Assembly (NCBI RefSeq): GCF_002072175.1
Contig: NZ_MVIV01000001.1
Span: forward strand, 62,001-126,000
Direction: 5' to 3'
DNA length: 64,000 nt
Origin: Actinomyces gaoshouyii
Lineage (GTDB): Bacteria; Actinomycetota; Actinomycetes; Actinomycetales; Actinomycetaceae
Both the position numbers and the translations under genes were made by a program. The notes beneath the pieces were generated by a model. That model saw only the letters and a program-made list of their open reading frames with translations. It did not search any database and was not told where the DNA came from. Of the stretch, positions 52,864-64,000 are shown piece after piece. The stretch's first letter is position 1; every line of letters starts with the position of its first letter.

Positions 52864-54081
52864 TCAATCTCCGCCGAACCAGTCATCCATGGCATCGCCG
52901 TCGGGGCCGCTCCAGGCCAGGGCCATCACGAACTCGTCGGGCCTCAGGAGGATGCGGGAGAAGGCCTCGCGCACGCGCTCGCAGGTGGCGTCGTCGGCGA
53001 TGCCGGTGATCACCAGGTGGCAGCGCGGGCCGACGGGCCCGCCCACTGCGGCCCCCAACGTCTCCTCCCCTCCCCAGGCAACGGGTGCCTCGTCCCAGGT
53101 GCCGGCATCCCCCACAGTGACGGCGCCGCCGGCGACCTCCCACGCGCAGACGCGCCCGGGACGGCTGGGCAGCCAGAAGCAGCCGCGCGCGCACATGCCC
53201 GCCCCGGCGAGGTCGGCGACGAGCTCGCGCAGTCGCTCGGGATGGAAGGGTCGGTCGGAGACGAGGTCGAGGGTGCGCACGCCGTGCTCCACCGGCCCTC
53301 CCCAGGCGCGGGTGGAGGCGGGATGGACTCGGGCGACGGCGGCGCGGGCGTCATGGCGCACCGACATGAGGGCGTTGAGGACCGGCGCATCGAATCCGGG
53401 CAGGAGGAGCGCGTCGTGGGCGCGCAGGTGCTCGACGAGGTCCGCGCCCGCACCCTCCTCCCCCACCGCGATGATGACATCGGCGTAGCCGAGCCCCAGC
53501 ATATGGACCTCGCCGGTGCAGCGGGGGTCGCCCTCGCCCCAGGCCAGACCGCGGTCGGCCAGGGGGATGTGGGTGAGGATCTCGTCGACGGCGGTGACGG
53601 TGAGCACCGCGTGGGCGACGCCCGCCAGCGCGACGCCCGGGACGGCCTCGAGTGCCTCTGCCAGGCGCGGTGCGAGGTGGACGATCTCGATCGCCGGGGG
53701 CAGGAGGATGACGGTGGCACCGCGCGGATCATCGGCAGCGCGGTCCTGGGCGACGGCGAGGAGCACCTCGCGCAGGGCGCAGGTGGGACAGGGCATCGGC
53801 ATGTCGATATCGAGCACGGCGGGCTCGGCGAGCGCCGGGGAGGGCTCGCCGTCGAGGGCCTCCGATCCAACCGACGACAGGCTGATGACGCCATGCTCGC
53901 CCCGGTCTGGGTGGATCGTGGTGGCGATGACGAGGGCGTCCTCGCCATGGAGGCTGAGAGCCGCCAAGTCCAGCAGCGCGGGATCGACGGCGCCGATGAG
54001 GGCGATCCGGTGGCCGGCGTCGGCGTGGGGGCTGCGGGAGGGGGGCGGGTTCGCCCCGGGCGGGGATGAGTCGAAAGTCAT
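52864..54081 (-). CDS. CobW C-terminal domain protein lacking GTPase motifs
   Basis: This 405-residue protein resembles COG0523/CobW metallochaperones in layout: a Cys pair ([10 protein letters not shown]) where the CxCC metal site normally lies, a [15 protein letters not shown] segment, and a CobW_C-like domain ([25 protein letters not shown]). The Walker A loop (GxxGxGKT) and the NKxD motif are absent; [16 protein letters not shown] and [10 protein letters not shown] stand in their places. It is therefore probably not a GTPase. ATG 54081 is chosen; an upstream start at 54138 would overlap rpmB. The divergence from zinc-independent ribosomal protein genes suggests a role in zinc shortage. 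Confidence 0.72.
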
Positions 54082-54098
54082 GGGGGGCTCCAACTTGA

Positions 54099-54113
54099 CG
54101 GTAATGAGATTCA
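54099..54113. promoter_or_regulatory. Candidate Zur box between the CobW-like gene and rpmB
   Basis: CGGTAATGAGATTCA matches 8 of 12 fixed positions of the actinobacterial Zur consensus TGAnAATnATTnTCA. It sits in the 49-base gap between divergent genes that are classic Zur targets. The match is imperfect, so the context carries most of the weight. Confidence 0.45.
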
Positions 54114-54130
54114 ATCCCAATACTGCCCCC

Positions 54131-54370
54131 ATGACCACCTACTGCCAAGTCACGGGGGCCCGACCGGTCTTCGGAAAGTCCGTCTCCCACTCCCACCGCC
54201 GCACGAACCGACGCTGGGACCCCAACCTCCAGCGCAAGCGCTACTGGGCGCCCTCGCTCGGGCGCACCATCACACTGACCGTCAGCGCACGCGGGATCAA
54301 GACCATCGACAAGAGGGGCATCGACGCCGTCGTGGCTGACATGCTCGCCCGAGGGGAGAAGTTGCGATGA
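54131..54370 (+). CDS. rpmB: 50S ribosomal protein L28, zinc-independent paralog
   Basis: This 79-residue L28 ([20 protein letters not shown] start, [24 protein letters not shown]) has a single Cys rather than the two CxxC pairs of zinc-binding L28. It is the first gene of a five-gene cluster of cysteine-depleted ribosomal proteins. Such C- paralogs replace the zinc forms when zinc is short, and are usually repressed by Zur. The ATG at 54131 has no clear Shine-Dalgarno, so a leaderless or very short-leader mRNA is possible. Its stop overlaps rpmG by four bases. Confidence 0.93.
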
Positions 54371-54537
54371 GCACGGCCGCCAAGGGCCTGCGCCCCATCA
54401 TCACGATGGTGTCCACCGCGGGCACGGGCCGCACCTACGTCACGCGCAAGAACCGCCGCAACACCCCCGATCGCCTCGTGCTGCGCAAATTCGACCCCGT
54501 GGTGCGCCGCCACGTCGAGTTCAAGGAGTCCCGCTGA
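54367..54537 (+). CDS. rpmG: 50S ribosomal protein L33, zinc-independent paralog
   Basis: This 56-residue L33 ([20 protein letters not shown], then [16 protein letters not shown]) has no cysteine, whereas zinc-type L33 carries two CxxC pairs. It starts at ATG 54367, overlapping the rpmB stop (ATGA), and ends by sharing one base with the rpsN start (TGATG). The length is typical. It acts as a stand-in ribosomal protein under zinc limitation by analogy with other bacteria. Confidence 0.94.
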
Positions 54538-54842
54538 TGGCCAAGAACTCCAAGATCGCCGCGGACAAGCGCCGCCGCGCCGTCGTGGCCCGCTACGCCG
54601 AGCGCCGCGCCGAGCTCAAGAGGATCTCCGTCAACCCGCACCTGAGCGCCGCCGAGCGAGAGGCCGCCATGGCCGCGCTGCACGCCCTGCCCCGAGACGC
54701 CTCCCCCACGCGAGTGCGCAACCGGGACGCCATCGACGGGCGCCCCCGCGGATACCTGCGCGCCACCGGGACCTCCCGCGTGCGATTCCGCGAGATGGCC
54801 GCGCGCGGCGAGCTGCCCGGCATCGTCAAGTCGTCCTGGTGA
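54537..54842 (+). CDS. rpsN: 30S ribosomal protein S14, zinc-independent paralog
   Basis: This 101-residue S14 is the long, cysteine-free type ([17 protein letters not shown], then [26 protein letters not shown]). Zinc-binding S14 is about 61 residues with two CxxC pairs, so length and Cys content both identify the C- form. It is translationally coupled to rpmG. The primary rpsN gene should lie in the main ribosomal protein operon outside the window. Confidence 0.95.
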
Positions 54843-54866
54843 CAAGCTGATGACAAGGAGCACGCC

Positions 54867-55136
54867 ATGAGACCCGGAATCCACCCCGACTACCACCCGA
54901 TCGTCTTCCGCGATAAGAGCGCGGGCTTCGCCTTCCTGACCCGCTCGACCATGACCTCCGCCGAAACCATCGAATGGGAGGACGGCAATGCCTACCCCGT
55001 CGTCGACGTGGAGGTCTCCAGCGCTTCCCACCCGTTCTGGACCGGCCAGGGCCGGATCCTGGACACGGCCGGCCGCGTGGAGAAGTTCGAGCGCCGCTAC
55101 GGCAAGCGCGCCCGCCCCGCCAGTAAGGAGGCCTGA
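54867..55136 (+). CDS. rpmE: 50S ribosomal protein L31 type B (zinc-independent)
   Basis: This 89-residue L31B ([23 protein letters not shown]-like [31 protein letters not shown]) has no CxxC, as in the zinc-independent YkgM type. The start ATG 54867 has AAGGAG seven bases upstream. It lies 24 bases after rpsN and two bases before rpmJ. The exchange of L31A for L31B frees ribosomal zinc in bacteria where it has been studied. Confidence 0.95.
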
Positions 55137-55138
55137 GA

Positions 55139-55261
55139 ATGAAGGTCCGCGCCTCGATCCGCTCCCTGGCCAAGCAGCCGGGCTCGAAGGTGGTGCGCCG
55201 TCGCGGTCGCACCTATGTCATCAACAAGAGGAACCCGCGTCTCAAGGCCCGCCAGGGCTGA
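55139..55261 (+). CDS. rpmJ: 50S ribosomal protein L36 type B (zinc-independent, YkgO-like)
   Basis: The 40-residue protein [20 protein letters not shown] (first 20 residues) followed by [20 protein letters not shown] lacks the Cys/His zinc site of standard L36. It starts at ATG 55139, preceded by AAGGAGG, two bases after the rpmE stop. It completes a rpmB-rpmG-rpsN-rpmE-rpmJ C- ribosomal protein operon and is followed by a hairpin terminator. Confidence 0.94.
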
Positions 55262-55475: not shown

Positions 55476-56582
55476 ATGCATATTCCTGACGGTTACCTCT
55501 CCCCGGAGACCTGCGCCGCGACCTTGCTCATCACCGTGCCGAGCCTCGCGCTCGCCGCGCGCAGGGTCGGCGAGGAGATCGGTACCCGCCAGGTCCCGGC
55601 CCTCGCCCTGTTCTCATCCTCCAGCTTCCTGATCATGATGCTCAATCTGCCCGTGCCGGGAGGCACGACGGCCCACGCCGTAGGGGCCGTCATCATCGGG
55701 GTGGTGCTGGGGCCCTGGGCGGCCATGATCGCCGTCGCGGTGGCTCTGCTCTTCCAGGCCCTGCTCTTCGACGACGGCGGCATACTCACCTGGGGCGCCA
55801 ACGTACTCAACATGGCGATCCTCATGCCGATCGTCGGCCTGGCGGTCTATCGCCTCCTCTCCAAGGGCTCCATGCTGAACTCGCGGCGCCGTACCCTGGC
55901 CGCAGCGCTCGGGGGGTACACGGGGATGCTCGCGGCGGCACTCGCCGTTGCGGTCGAGCTGGGCATCCAGCCGGCCTTTTTCCACTCCGACGATGGGACC
56001 CCCCTGTACTCACCCTATTCCCTGTCCCAGACACTGCCGGCGATGCTGGTGGCGCACTTGCTCGTCGCCGGGCCCGCCGAGGCCCTCCTCACCGGTGCCC
56101 TGCTCACCCGCATCGCGCGCACGCGCCCCTCGCTCCTGCTGCGCACCCATACCGGGCTCATCGGCGGGGCCGCTGCCGACGGAGCCGCACGCGCGGCCAA
56201 AGCTCCCAGGAGCATCCTGGCGCTCATCGCCCTGGCGCCCCTCGGCATGCTCGCAAAAGGCACGGCCTTCGCCGAAGACGCCCCCGAGGATCTCTCCCCC
56301 TCCGACCTCGGCCTCAATGCCCTCCCCTCCGGGATGACGCGCTACGCGGAATTCTGGAACCATGCACTGCTCTCGGGCTACGGCGCGGATGGCCCGCATC
56401 CCGTCCTCGCGTACTGGGGATCCGCCATCCTGGGCACCCTCACGATCGGGACCCTCGCCATGGTCATCATGCGCCTCGTCCGCCACCCGGCCGGCAGAGC
56501 GCCCCATTCCTCCCCGCCCCACCGGCCCACAGGACCGAACACGGCCATCGTGGCGTCGGGACCACCGGCGTCAGACTCGTGA
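55476..56582 (+). CDS. nikM: Energy-coupling factor nickel transporter substrate component (NikM/CbiM with CbiN-like tail)
   Basis: This 368-residue membrane protein begins MHIPDGYLSPETC, the metal-coordinating N-terminus of CbiM/NikM, in which the amino group and His2 bind Ni2+ or Co2+. A CbiM core of about six helices follows (about 1-215). The remainder (about 240-340, with SGYGADGPHPVLAYWGSAI and a final helix) resembles the PDGLE/CbiN-like component fused in-line. The urease genes downstream make nickel the likely metal. ATG 55476 has GGAAAGGA upstream. Its stop overlaps the nikQ GTG by four bases. Confidence 0.9.
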   Translation: MHIPDGYLSPETCAATLLITVPSLALAARRVGEEIGTRQVPALALFSSSSFLIMMLNLPVPGGTTAHAVGAVIIGVVLGPWAAMIAVAVALLFQALLFDDGGILTWGANVLNMAILMPIVGLAVYRLLSKGSMLNSRRRTLAAALGGYTGMLAAALAVAVELGIQPAFFHSDDGTPLYSPYSLSQTLPAMLVAHLLVAGPAEALLTGALLTRIARTRPSLLLRTHTGLIGGAAADGAARAAKAPRSILALIALAPLGMLAKGTAFAEDAPEDLSPSDLGLNALPSGMTRYAEFWNHALLSGYGADGPHPVLAYWGSAILGTLTIGTLAMVIMRLVRHPAGRAPHSSPPHRPTGPNTAIVASGPPASDS

Positions 56583-57469
56583 GATCCCCGCACTGGGCCC
56601 GCTCCACGCGCCGAGCACTGACGAGGACCCTCGCCGATGCGACGGCGGCCGCCTCGCTCGCGCTGCGCGAGGGCCGCCCGCCGCATCCCGGAACCAGCCC
56701 GCCCCGCGGCATCGACGCCAGGTGCGCAGTCCTCCTCTCCCTGGCGGGCCTCATCCGCATCGCCCTCGTCCGCTCCCCGATCACCCTGGCCGTCATCTAC
56801 GCGTCCGAGGTGATCCTCGCCCGCAGCGCGCGCCTGCCAATGGGGACCTTCCTGCGCCGCAGCCTCCTGCCCGCTCCCCTGTTCACTCTCGCGCCCGCGC
56901 TGCCGGCCGCACTGTCCGCAGTCTCACCGGGCCCCGTGCTCTTCGCGCTTCCCGGAGGCCTGACCGTGACGACCATCGGCGTCATCGTGGCTGCGCGCCT
57001 TGTCGAGCGCGCTGCCTGCTCACTCGCGCTCGTCGCCCTGCTCGTCATGACCACGCGGTGGTCCGCGCTCCTCGAAGCGCTCACGGCGCTGCGCGTGCCC
57101 CGTCTCATCACGACAATCGCGTCGATGGCCCATCGCTACCTGCTGGTCCTGCTCGGCGTTGTTGCCGATGCCATCGACGCGCGGCGCTCGCGCACGGTGC
57201 GCCCCAGGCTGGCGCCCGGCGGGACGGGCGCGGCAGTGGCCCATGTGGGAGCGGCCGCCCTCGTACGGGCCGGCGCACTGTCCGAAGAAGTCCACGACGC
57301 CATGCTCGCCCGCGGCTTCCGCGGGTCCTTTCCCGCTGTGTCCGGCCCTCGGGGTCTCGGGCACCGGGAGGCGGTCCTGATCGTCACAGTCTTCATCTCA
57401 TTCCTCCTCTGGGGCGGTCTCGACGTCCTTGCGGGGCAGTGGGGCCCATGGGGGAGGTGGGCGGCGTGA
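56579..57469 (+). CDS. nikQ: Energy-coupling factor nickel transporter transmembrane protein (NikQ/CbiQ)
   Basis: The 296-residue T component has several helices (about 48-82, 100-130, 140-160 and 262-282) and the CbiQ coupling-helix type segment in HDAMLARGFRGSFP (A-R-G), which contacts the ATPase. It starts at GTG 56579, overlapping nikM, and ends overlapping nikO. The Arg-rich, Pro-rich first 45 residues are longer than usual. With nikM and nikO it forms a complete group I ECF importer. Confidence 0.88.
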   Translation: MRSPHWARSTRRALTRTLADATAAASLALREGRPPHPGTSPPRGIDARCAVLLSLAGLIRIALVRSPITLAVIYASEVILARSARLPMGTFLRRSLLPAPLFTLAPALPAALSAVSPGPVLFALPGGLTVTTIGVIVAARLVERAACSLALVALLVMTTRWSALLEALTALRVPRLITTIASMAHRYLLVLLGVVADAIDARRSRTVRPRLAPGGTGAAVAHVGAAALVRAGALSEEVHDAMLARGFRGSFPAVSGPRGLGHREAVLIVTVFISFLLWGGLDVLAGQWGPWGRWAA

Positions 57470-58308
57470 GAGCGTGCCTCCGCTCCCGCGCCGCCTCGTC
57501 GTCCCCTCCCTCCGGGGCCGGCGAGCTCCCTCCCCTGATCCGCCTGGTCGGCATCAGCCACGTGTACGACGGCCCGGTCACGGCGCTCGACGACGTCACC
57601 CTCGATATCGTCGCCGGTGAGTCGGTCGCGCTCCTCGGCGCCAACGGATGCGGGAAGTCAACCCTCCTGCGCGTGCTCGATGCCCTCCTGGCGCCCACAC
57701 GGGGATCATTCGCCCTGGAGGGCCGCCCTATCAGTGAGGATTCCCTGGAGGACGAGGAGGCCAATGCCTGGTTCCGCTCGCGCGTCGGGTTCGTCTTCCA
57801 GAACACCGATGCCCAGCTCTTCTCGGCCTCGGTGCGGGAGGAGATCGCCTTCGGCGCCCATCAGCTCGGCCTGAGCGTCGATGAGGCCGCGGATCGTACG
57901 TGGACCGCGATGCGACGCATGGGGATCGAGGCCCTCGCGGATCGGCCCCCATTCCGCCTGTCGGGTGGGCAGAAGAAGCGTGTGGCCCTCGCCTCCGTCC
58001 TCGTCATGGAACCGCGCGTCATTCTCATGGATGAGCCGACGTCGGCTCTCGACCCGCGCTCACGGGCATGGCTCATCGATGTGGTCGACGGCTTGCGCGC
58101 CGCGGGCACGACCCTCGTCATCGCCAGTCATGATCTGGACTCCGTCGCCGCGATGACCTCGCGCGCCGTTGTCCTGGGGGAGGACCACCGTGTGGCCGCC
58201 GACGCCCCGACTCCCGAGGTGCTGGCGGATCGCGTCCTGCTCGAGCGGGTCAACCTCATCGCCCCGTCCGGCCCCGCCCGCACGGCCGATGGGCATCCCG
58301 CCGCGTAG
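57466..58308 (+). CDS. nikO: Energy-coupling factor nickel transporter ATPase (NikO/CbiO)
   Basis: This 280-residue ABC ATPase has Walker [10 protein letters not shown] (58-66), Q-loop [20 protein letters not shown] (Q-N-x-D, typical of ECF A components), signature [15 protein letters not shown], Walker [13 protein letters not shown] and switch His in ASHDL. The GTG at 57466 overlaps the nikQ stop (GTGA), matching the nikM-nikQ junction, with GGGAGG about nine bases upstream; ATG 57448 is an alternative start. The open frame runs back to 56362 but that part is shadow of nikQ. Confidence 0.92.
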
Positions 58309-62020: not shown

Positions 62021-62083
62021 CCGTCCGCCCCCGCGCACGCGGCCCCATCCTCAACAGCATCCGCCATCATCTAGGAGAACCCC

Positions 62084-62758
62084 ATGCCCGGATCTTCAGC
62101 CCCCTCATCAGCCGCCCCGGCGCGAACCACCCCCGCTTCGGGGACAGGCCCTGTGCGCATCGGCGTCGGGGGCCCCGTCGGCGCCGGGAAGACCCAGCTC
62201 ATCGAGCGCATCACCCGCGCCATGATCGACGAGGTCTCGATGGCCGCCGTGACCAACGACATCTACACGATCGAGGACGCCAGGATCCTCGCGAAGAACG
62301 GCGTCCTGGCCGACGATCGCATCATCGGCCTGGAAACCGGGGGCTGCCCCCACACGGCGATCCGCGAGGATACGTCGATGAACGACGCCGCCATCGCCGA
62401 GCTCGTCGGGAGGCATCCGGATCTGGAGATCGTCTTCGTCGAGTCCGGCGGAGACAATCTCTCGGCGACTTTCTCCCCCGAACTCGTCGACTTCTCGATC
62501 TACATCATCGACGTCGCCCAGGGGGAGAAGATCCCCCGCAAGGCCGGGCAGGGGATGATCAAGTCGGACCTGTTCATCATCAATAAGACCGACCTCGCCC
62601 CCTACGTCGGGGCGGACCTCTCCGTCATGGAGGCGGACTCGCGGACCTTCCGCGGGAACAAGCCATTCTGCTTCACCAACCTCAAGACCGACGAGGGCCT
62701 GGGTGCCGTACTGGACTGGATCCGTCACGACGTGCTCATGACGGACCTCGAGCGGTGA
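62084..62758 (+). CDS. ureG: Urease accessory GTPase UreG
   Basis: The 224-residue SIMIBI GTPase uses GTP hydrolysis to insert nickel into urease. P-loop GPVGAGKT (30-37), the CPH metal motif in [24 protein letters not shown] and the base-recognition NKTD ([11 protein letters not shown]) are all intact. A Ser/Ala/Pro-rich N-terminal tail of about 22 residues precedes the P-loop. ATG 62084 has AGGAGA upstream. Its stop overlaps the ureD start by four bases. Confidence 0.97.
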
Positions 62759-63624
62759 GTGGGAGTGATCGGGCCTGGGCGGTTCCTCCCCCGTCCTGGC
62801 CGGTTGAGCCCACGGGCGAACTGCACCTCGCCGTGGGCTCGCGCGGCAACCGCTCCGTCGCGACACGGCAGCACCACCGCGGCGCCCTGCGCGTCATCCG
62901 TCCCATGTACCTCGACGACAGCTCGCAGGTCACCTATGTGATGGTCAACCCGGGCGGCGGCTACCTGGGCGGCGACACCTACTTCACGGATGTCGTGGTC
63001 GACGACGGCGCGCGCCTCTTGCTCACCACCCAGGCGGCCACGAAGGTCTACCGCACACCGGGGAATCGCGCGCGCCAGCGCACCGAGGCCGTCCTCGGTG
63101 AGGGAGCCGTCCTCGAGATCATCCCGGACCAGCTCATCGCCTACCGGGGCGCCGCTTACGAGCAGACAACCCATGTCACCATGGCGCCCTCCGCGATCCT
63201 CATCAGCCTCGACGTCGTCACACCCGGATGGGCGCCCGACGGGTCCGCCTTCGGCTACGACAGCGTGCGCCTGCGCACGCGCGTCGACATCGCCGGTTCG
63301 CCCGTCCTGCTCGACAACCTGCGCCTGGAACCCGCCGACGGCGACATGCGCGCCCTGGGGCTCCTGGAGGGACACAGCCATGTGGGCTCCCTGACCGTCA
63401 TCGGGCAGAGGACTGACGACGGGATCATCGAGCGGGTCCGCGCGCTGCTGGCCAACGTGGGCGCCGGTGTGCGCGCCGCCGTCACCCGCATCGAGGGCCC
63501 CGGGATGCTCGTGCGAGTGCTCGGCCACGACACGGGAACGATCACGGCCCTCTTGCTGGGCGTTGACGCCCTCGTGCGCCGCGAGTGGCTGGGAGCCTCC
63601 CCACTCGTACTGCGCAAATACTGA
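62755..63624 (+). CDS. ureD: Urease accessory protein UreD (UreH)
   Basis: This 289-residue scaffold protein shows the family segments [30 protein letters not shown] and [14 protein letters not shown]. It starts with a GTG at 62755 in a GTGA overlap with ureG. UreD binds the urease apoenzyme and forms the tunnel with UreF for nickel delivery. Placing ureD last, after ureG, is common in Gram-positive and actinobacterial clusters. Confidence 0.94.
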
Positions 63625-63688
63625 CCCCCGCTCTGCCCTGGGCCGCCCGAGGAGGCGTCCCCACCAGACCATCAGGAAGGACCGAGCC

Positions 63689-64000
63689 ATGTCCGCCGCA
63701 ACCGCATCCCCCACCGAGGCCGCAGCCCTGCTGCCCCAAGTGCTCGGCGCCGGGCATGCCATCGCCCTCGGGCTGGGGCAGATCTTCCTCCAGCCCCGCG
63801 CGTGGACCGGGATGCTCATCCTCGCGGGGATCACCGTCCACTGCCCGCTCATGGCGCTCCAAGCGCTACTGGGCACCGTCATCGCCACGGTAGCGGCCCG
63901 TTCACTCGGGCTGCCGCTGGAGGCGGGCCTGCAGGGGTACAACGGCGCCCTCGTTGGGCTGGCGGCTTGGTCGACGCTCTCGGCCACATGGCCCGCCACG
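63689..64000 (+). CDS. Urea transporter (UT family), 5' part
   Basis: The reading frame is open from ATG 63689 to the window edge (104 residues visible). AGGAAGGA lies seven bases before the start. It shows ALGLGQIFLQPRAWTGMLIL (about 26-45) and LQGYNGALVGLAAWST (about 82-97), patterns typical of the UT/Yut channel-type urea transporters, which pair a G(I/L)GQ(I/V)F segment with G(F/Y)NG.LVG. Placed directly after ureD, it would supply urea to the urease. The rest of the gene is outside the window. Confidence 0.85.
   Translation, partial: MSAATASPTEAAALLPQVLGAGHAIALGLGQIFLQPRAWTGMLILAGITVHCPLMALQALLGTVIATVAARSLGLPLEAGLQGYNGALVGLAAWSTLSATWPAT

Follow-up and report, generated by a model that had tools for sequence, protein, structure and literature searches.

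In the window, by which we mean the whole 64,000-nucleotide stretch of the Actinomyces gaoshouyii genome analysed here, a CobW-like gene stands back to back with a set of ribosomal protein genes poor in cysteine codons. The question raised by this locus is whether a COG0523-like protein that has lost its nucleotide-binding motifs, placed beside genes of the zinc-starvation response, represents a new functional class, as the initial annotation had suggested, or a form of a protein already described in other actinobacteria.

Results

A ribosomal protein operon without zinc ligands lies opposite the CobW-like gene

The A. gaoshouyii genome (20 contigs, 2.26-Mb, completeness 99.99%) was examined by family searches with Pfam and NCBIfam, by which the five plus-strand genes at 54131–55261 were assigned to L28, L33, S14, L31 and L36 (Table 1). 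The reading frames of rpmB, rpmG and rpsN overlap by a few bases, and a 49-bp gap separates the set from the divergent CobW-like gene on the minus strand. Cysteine counts are 1 for L28 and 0 for each of L33, S14, type B L31 and type B L36, and the single L28 cysteine lies outside any CxxC; the description of all five as cysteine-depleted was therefore correct. Genome searches for second copies, carried out for L28, L31 and S14, returned one further copy of each, with four paired cysteines. The operon thus has the composition of a C- operon, in which paralogs without zinc ligands are accompanied by zinc-type copies elsewhere in the genome, the second copies being those of these three proteins.

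Table 1. Features of the locus, with positions numbered from the first base of the window
Feature	Position	Strand	Basis
mrf-type gene, CobW-like pseudo-GTPase, 405 aa	52864..54081	-	ORF, family searches, alignment, tree, model, fold match
CxxC (CPTC, Cys98/Cys101)	53779..53790	-	invariant in 42/42 aligned sequences
Place of lost P-loop, residues 29-37 (IGAVDPALL)	53971..53997	-	sequence; end of first strand and next helix in model
Promoter-like pair TTGACG-18-AATACT	54095..54124	+	9 of 12; shuffles mean 0.1; overlaps operator
Predicted Zur-type operator between divergent genes	54102..54122		matrix score 14.18
rpmB, C- type L28	54131..54370	+	family searches, Cys count, second-copy search
rpmG, C- type L33	54367..54537	+	family searches, Cys count
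rpsN, C- type S14	54537..54842	+	family searches, Cys count, second-copy search
rpmE2, type B L31	54867..55136	+	family searches, Cys count, second-copy search
rpmJ2, type B L36	55139..55261	+	family searches, Cys count

After the C- operon comes a cobalt/nickel ECF transporter (55476–58308), made up of CbiM and CbiQ, both found by family searches, and an ABC ATPase named from its sequence. Further along, at 62075–63999, are frames that we take for a GTPase resembling UreG, a protein resembling UreD and the beginning of one resembling urea transporters; a nickel and urease cluster thus adjoins the zinc operon.

A Zur-type site lies between the divergent genes

Candidate operators were scored with a matrix derived from 15 Zur sites published for actinobacteria, and the single best site in each locus was taken. 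The site in the intergenic gap was the best in the 64 kb (14.18), the next non-overlapping site scoring 3.56. The Zur-like box noted earlier is thus present, and by the matrix it is not the weak one it had been called, though a consensus scan misses it: when the genome was scanned for the consensus with up to 2 mismatches, the window operator was passed over and 7 sites were returned, against 4 for the reversed pattern. This being little above the control, the consensus pattern was rejected as an operator test and the matrix was used instead. In 40 of 41 relatives, no more than 4 of 200 letter shuffles equalled the best upstream site; the exception, L101, had no site, its best upstream match being equalled by 52 of 200 shuffles.

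The rpmB start lies 7 bases after the promoter-like pair, whose -10 element ends at 54124 with the ATG at 54131, and rpmB may be leaderless. The genome encodes one Fur-family protein, which is likely to be Zur; the frame adjoining its gene is presumably glycyl-tRNA synthetase. For Mycobacterium smegmatis, passages of PMC7174638 report that, when zinc or Zur is absent, expression of MSMEG_6069 (MRF) and the C- genes rises hundreds- to thousands-fold, and place a predicted Zur site before MSMEG_6069 and another before rpmB (MSMEG_6068).

The COG0523 fold is retained and the nucleotide-binding motifs are lost

The longest open frame of the CobW-like gene starts with GTG at 54138. From sequence comparison the ATG at 54081, giving 405 aa, appears the likelier start, because a matching ATG is found in the two closest named relatives, from A. 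denticolens and A. timonensis (88% and 77% identity to the window protein over the best segment, records of its own genome possibly being excluded).

A CobW_C domain was detected above the Pfam cut-off (9.7e-9), and a Pfam search of the window protein at E values up to 0.1 gave no match to the cobW GTPase domain. Pattern reading (locus L014) found neither P-loop nor NKxD. In 16 P-loop COG0523 proteins the place of residues 29–37 is taken by GFLGAGKT or GFLGSGKT, and the CxCC motif of such GTPases is CPTC in the window protein. The RGCFW blocks are as invariant as this CxxC, being found in 42 of 42 aligned sequences. The CobW_C match, CPTC and the motif reading together bear out the view that the CobW layout and a cysteine pair are kept while P-loop and NKxD are gone.

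A sequence search of the PDB with the window protein found no relative (best E 0.44). An AlphaFold2 model was built from 35 sequences (pLDDT 87, pTM 0.86), and its best solved match was zinc-bound YjiA, a COG0523 protein (Foldseek E 5e-11; Z 11.4 over 255 residues, rmsd 8.1), followed by SRP-type GTPases at Z 9. The high rmsd to YjiA suggests that the two domains may be placed differently. The structural comparison with CobW proteins that had been proposed as a check thus returned the COG0523 fold, which with the CobW_C domain is the part of the COG0523 definition that this protein retains; Walker A, NKxD and CxCC, which mark the P-loop GTPases of the group, are missing. An intact P-loop, which had been named among the observations that would overturn the proposal, was not seen in the model, where residues 29–37 form the end of the first strand and a helix. 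The possibility of a hidden intact P-loop was dropped on the motif reading of relatives and the predicted model.

Profile comparisons place the protein with Mrf, as a distant branch

The window protein has the marks of Mrf: it is COG0523-like, without Walker A and NKxD and with CxxC, and its gene is divergent from C- rpmB–rpmG–rpsN with a Zur-type site. In passages of Haas et al. 2009 (PMC2770081), Rv0106, the Mycobacterium tuberculosis Mrf, is described as COG0523-like with both GTPase motifs missing, so the idea of such a protein was already in print; the family has since been described, in parts of PMC7174638 and PMC13418864, as the Mpy recruitment factor. The proposed new functional class accordingly did not hold, since these defects are already those of the Mrf family (MSMEG_6069/Rv0106), and the layout around MSMEG_6069 is likewise divergent. 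What stood was the derivation from CobW/COG0523, the absence of nucleotide-binding motifs and the Zur-type locus.

The NCBIfam MRF model (NF047431) matched residues 91–385 of the window protein (E 5e-16) with 58.6 bits, far below the curated cut-off of 375 bits, which counts against Mrf identity. For comparison, profiles were built for four groups, against which the protein scored 73.0 (Streptomyces-like), 47.5 (mycobacterial), 38.8 (a third P-loop-less group of 3 sequences) and 34.9 bits (P-loop); profile–profile E values were, in the same order, 2.3e-33, 3.6e-31, 5.3e-28 and 3.2e-27. All 41 relatives scored higher with the Streptomyces-like than with the P-loop profile. Two observations count against Mrf, namely the small gap between the mycobacterial Mrf and P-loop COG0523 scores (47.5 vs 34.9) and the 6 of 41 relatives for which the P-loop profile outscored the mycobacterial one. 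From the profile scores the window protein falls on the Mrf side, as a distant branch, and is most probably a remote form of Mrf and not a novel sort of protein.

Loss of the P-loop is shared by relatives and maps to one branch

A survey had been suggested of whether the P-loop is consistently lost in orthologs that neighbour C- ribosomal genes, and it is, in all 30 family loci and all 41 named relatives. In the family survey 36 of 151 genomes were matched, from which 30 loci, the window's own included, were fetched. None of the 30 has a P-loop or NKxD pattern, and each has ribosomal protein genes on the opposite strand, Cys-free and zinc-type copies being undistinguished per locus. CxxC was read in 29; the exception, L009, is a split gene represented here by its C-terminal piece, and the split may reflect recent loss or an error in sequencing. 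Every named relative lacks the P-loop, keeps CxxC and has L28 and L33 on the opposite strand (41/41 each), one of them (L094) containing a chance NKND. The two sets have some species in common and are not independent.

Across the phylum, 70 of 396 genomes matched NF047431, 11 of them above the cut-off, and we read the best 30 loci. P-loop and NKxD are absent from all 11 fetched proteins above the cut-off, CxxC is retained in each, and L28 and L33 are encoded on the other strand in every case. The title of NF047431 is "ribosome hibernation factor-recruiting GTPase MRF"; judged by its members' motifs, the GTPase label appears doubtful, and on this evidence the word should be dropped from the name. 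Six Streptomyces-like proteins, from genomes of another family label (f6) that are probably Streptomyces, likewise have neither motif; they carry CACC, and L28 and S14 are encoded on the other strand (6/6). The 16 P-loop proteins among these best 30 loci, whose P-loops are given above, have CICC.

In another class of the phylum (L045, L047 and L050), a P-loop-less Mrf-like gene and L31 stand beside an intact P-loop COG0523 gene, an arrangement that is possibly a tandem duplication near the origin of the P-loop-less type. Genes for P-loop proteins were also found near ribosomal genes, on the same strand, in L044 (L33) and L060 (S14, L28 and L33), and in L061 L31 and L33 lie on the strand opposite to a P-loop COG0523 gene, which gives a comparable neighbourhood around an intact GTPase. 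Such surroundings therefore do not set the P-loop-less type apart and are by themselves no proof of Mrf.

The P-loop is ancestral in the COG0523 GTPase family. In a tree of 55 proteins, one branch (100/99), recovered in 200 of 200 bootstrap trees, separates the 16 P-loop from 39 P-loop-less proteins and puts the window protein with known Mrf, apart from P-loop COG0523; the branching among P-loop-less groups is not firm (93/85). The root is a midpoint one, and a single loss rests on the ancestral P-loop. GTP binding would most simply have been lost in an ancestor common to the Actinomyces, mycobacterial and Streptomyces-like forms. Viral contigs scanned with mycobacterial-type Mrf gave 7 pattern matches and no relative.

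Mrf and a second L28 gene occur together

Among the 151 family genomes, the window's own included, mrf was found in 36 and two L28 genes in 39. Both were present in 34 and neither in 110, with 2 genomes having mrf only and 5 a second L28 only (7/151 discordant; Fisher p 4.5e-26, uncorrected for relatedness). Two mrf searches returned 36 genomes each, and each set includes two that the other lacks. Of 12 genomes in the genus of the window, 10 have both genes and 2 neither. In at least one of the five genomes with a second L28 only (G035), NF047431 weakly matches a gene divergent from L28. The other four (G004, G020, G054 and G063) have two L28 genes and no mrf match in either mrf search, and could show how C- ribosomes manage without Mrf.

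A Cys/His set marks one sub-branch of the family

Residues H157, H171 and C188 are each found in 38 of 42 aligned sequences and in 22 of 29 readable family loci, and are absent together from the remaining 4 and 7, respectively; H193 occurs in 26 of 42 sequences and 22 of 29 loci. The set was ruled out as a mark of all Actinomycetaceae: the seven loci without it (L002–L007 and L031) belong to the same family as the window, so it marks a sub-branch and not the whole family. One of the 38 sequences with the set (L089) comes from a metagenome bin labelled Propionibacterium. Other Mrf-type proteins are missing H157, H171 and C188, which counts against the Mrf assignment, and the metal site of the window protein may differ from theirs. 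From the alignment, shared ancestry would fit the pattern as well as a shared metal site.

A wider proposal can be put forward tentatively, which we consider rather unlikely to hold in full: that Mrf proteins throughout the Actinomycetota are zinc-gated pseudo-GTPases of one origin from COG0523, that the Actinomycetaceae sub-branch of the window gained H157, H171 and C188 as metal ligands near the dead nucleotide pocket, with zinc occupancy replacing GTP as the switch, and that in genomes like this one, in which the searches returned no standard COG0523 zinc chaperone, the protein would be the only CobW-family zinc sensor, acting on ribosomes.

Discussion

The reading we favour draws together what was observed here, that is, gene content and divergent layout, motif loss, CxxC conservation, an operator-like site, co-occurrence with a second L28, the COG0523 fold, and one gene each for a long HPF and a Fur-family protein. 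It is that the window protein is probably the Actinomyces Mrf, a Zur-controlled, zinc-gated, nucleotide-independent factor that would bring the long HPF onto zinc-free ribosomes, with Zur control, HPF recruitment and gating by degradation carried over by analogy from mycobacteria. With zinc plentiful, Zur-Zn on the operator would block both divergent promoters. With zinc low, zinc-free L28, L33, S14, L31 and L36 would be made and would replace the zinc-binding copies, and Mrf, also made then, would recruit the hibernation factor in its long form (HPF/Mpy) to the ribosomes so changed. CxxC would serve as the zinc gate, zinc-bound Mrf being inactive or degraded and zinc-free Mrf acting. One long-form HPF gene, the long form being judged from sequence, is present in the genome, so the recruitment partner exists. 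Zinc-induced hibernation has reportedly been disputed even in mycobacteria, by Tobiasson in 2019, and this counts against the proposed role. In parts of a review (PMC13418864), Mrf is described as having CXXC, bringing Mpy to C- ribosomes, and being degraded by Clp when zinc-bound.

The best placed of the alternatives, in our estimate still an unlikely one, is a nucleotide-free zinc store or chaperone, in which CxxC, possibly with H157, H171 and C188, would take zinc freed from ribosomal proteins and pass it to enzymes, with no role in hibernation. COG0523 ancestry and the all-or-none Cys/His set in the window's sub-branch speak for it, as does the composition of the genome: the only cobW-domain match lies at window 62159–62668, in a frame that we take to be UreG, and Mrf is the only CobW_C match, so zinc starvation seems to be met without a standard COG0523 zinc chaperone. 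Against it stand the close coupling to C- ribosomal genes and the action of the studied relative on ribosomes.

The coupling in layout and co-occurrence would also fit an assembly or quality factor for C- ribosomes that binds zinc-free subunits directly and independently of HPF; we hold this to be less probable again, as Mrf is described as recruiting Mpy and the binding to subunits is hypothetical. A true GTPase with a non-standard nucleotide site, to which the title of NF047431 and the retained P-loop NTPase fold would point, is very improbable, given that Walker A is absent from every Mrf-type protein read and NKxD from all but L094, with its chance match, and that passages of Haas et al. 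2009 (PMC2770081) take the same view of Rv0106. A decaying remnant of a zinc chaperone, to which we give scarcely any weight and which was dropped, could be read from the mrf gene of G110 (L009), split into frames of 249 and 132 aa, from the 239-aa frame that is all G010 has, and from the weak matches that are all that was found in G029, G058 and G120, but the frames of the relatives are open and share 38–88% identity with the window protein, apart from L100–L103 at 25–29%, and CxxC and the RGCFW blocks are invariant in 42 of 42.

Among the matches listed in searches of the literature on Rv0106, MSMEG_6069 or SCO3424, and on Actinomyces Zur with alternative ribosomal proteins, there was no account of an Actinomyces Mrf. 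What is added here is modestly new, and comprises the reach of the pattern beyond mycobacteria, its one change of P-loop state on the tree, the counts of co-occurrence with a second L28, the mismatch with the name "GTPase" and the sub-branch Cys/His set. The Mrf arrangement known from mycobacteria extends broadly across the actinobacteria, so that harmless organisms are available in which to test the disputed hibernation pathway.

Comparison with known systems

The five ribosomal proteins without zinc ligands and the Zur-type site are as in C- (alternative) ribosomal protein operons under Zur, and nothing notable differs. With the COG0523 P-loop zinc GTPases (YjiA, ZigA and YciC types) the window protein shares the fold (YjiA, Z 11.4) and the CobW_C domain, but it is without Walker A and NKxD and has CxCC reduced to CxxC. 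The Streptomyces-like P-loop-less CobW proteins are its best profile match and also lie divergent from L28 and S14; they differ in keeping CACC and in having L31 and L33 upstream of the CobW gene, on its own strand. Mrf itself (MSMEG_6069, Rv0106; NF047431) is alike in its COG0523 derivation, the absence of P-loop and NKxD, CxxC, divergence from rpmB and rpmG, and predicted Zur sites before MSMEG_6069 and rpmB, matched here by a Zur-type site. It differs in that the window protein reaches 58.6 of 375 bits, in H157, H171 and C188, which belong to the window's sub-branch, and in the operator, of which there is here one strong example in the 49-bp gap, whereas the passages of PMC7174638 concerned list one site per gene.
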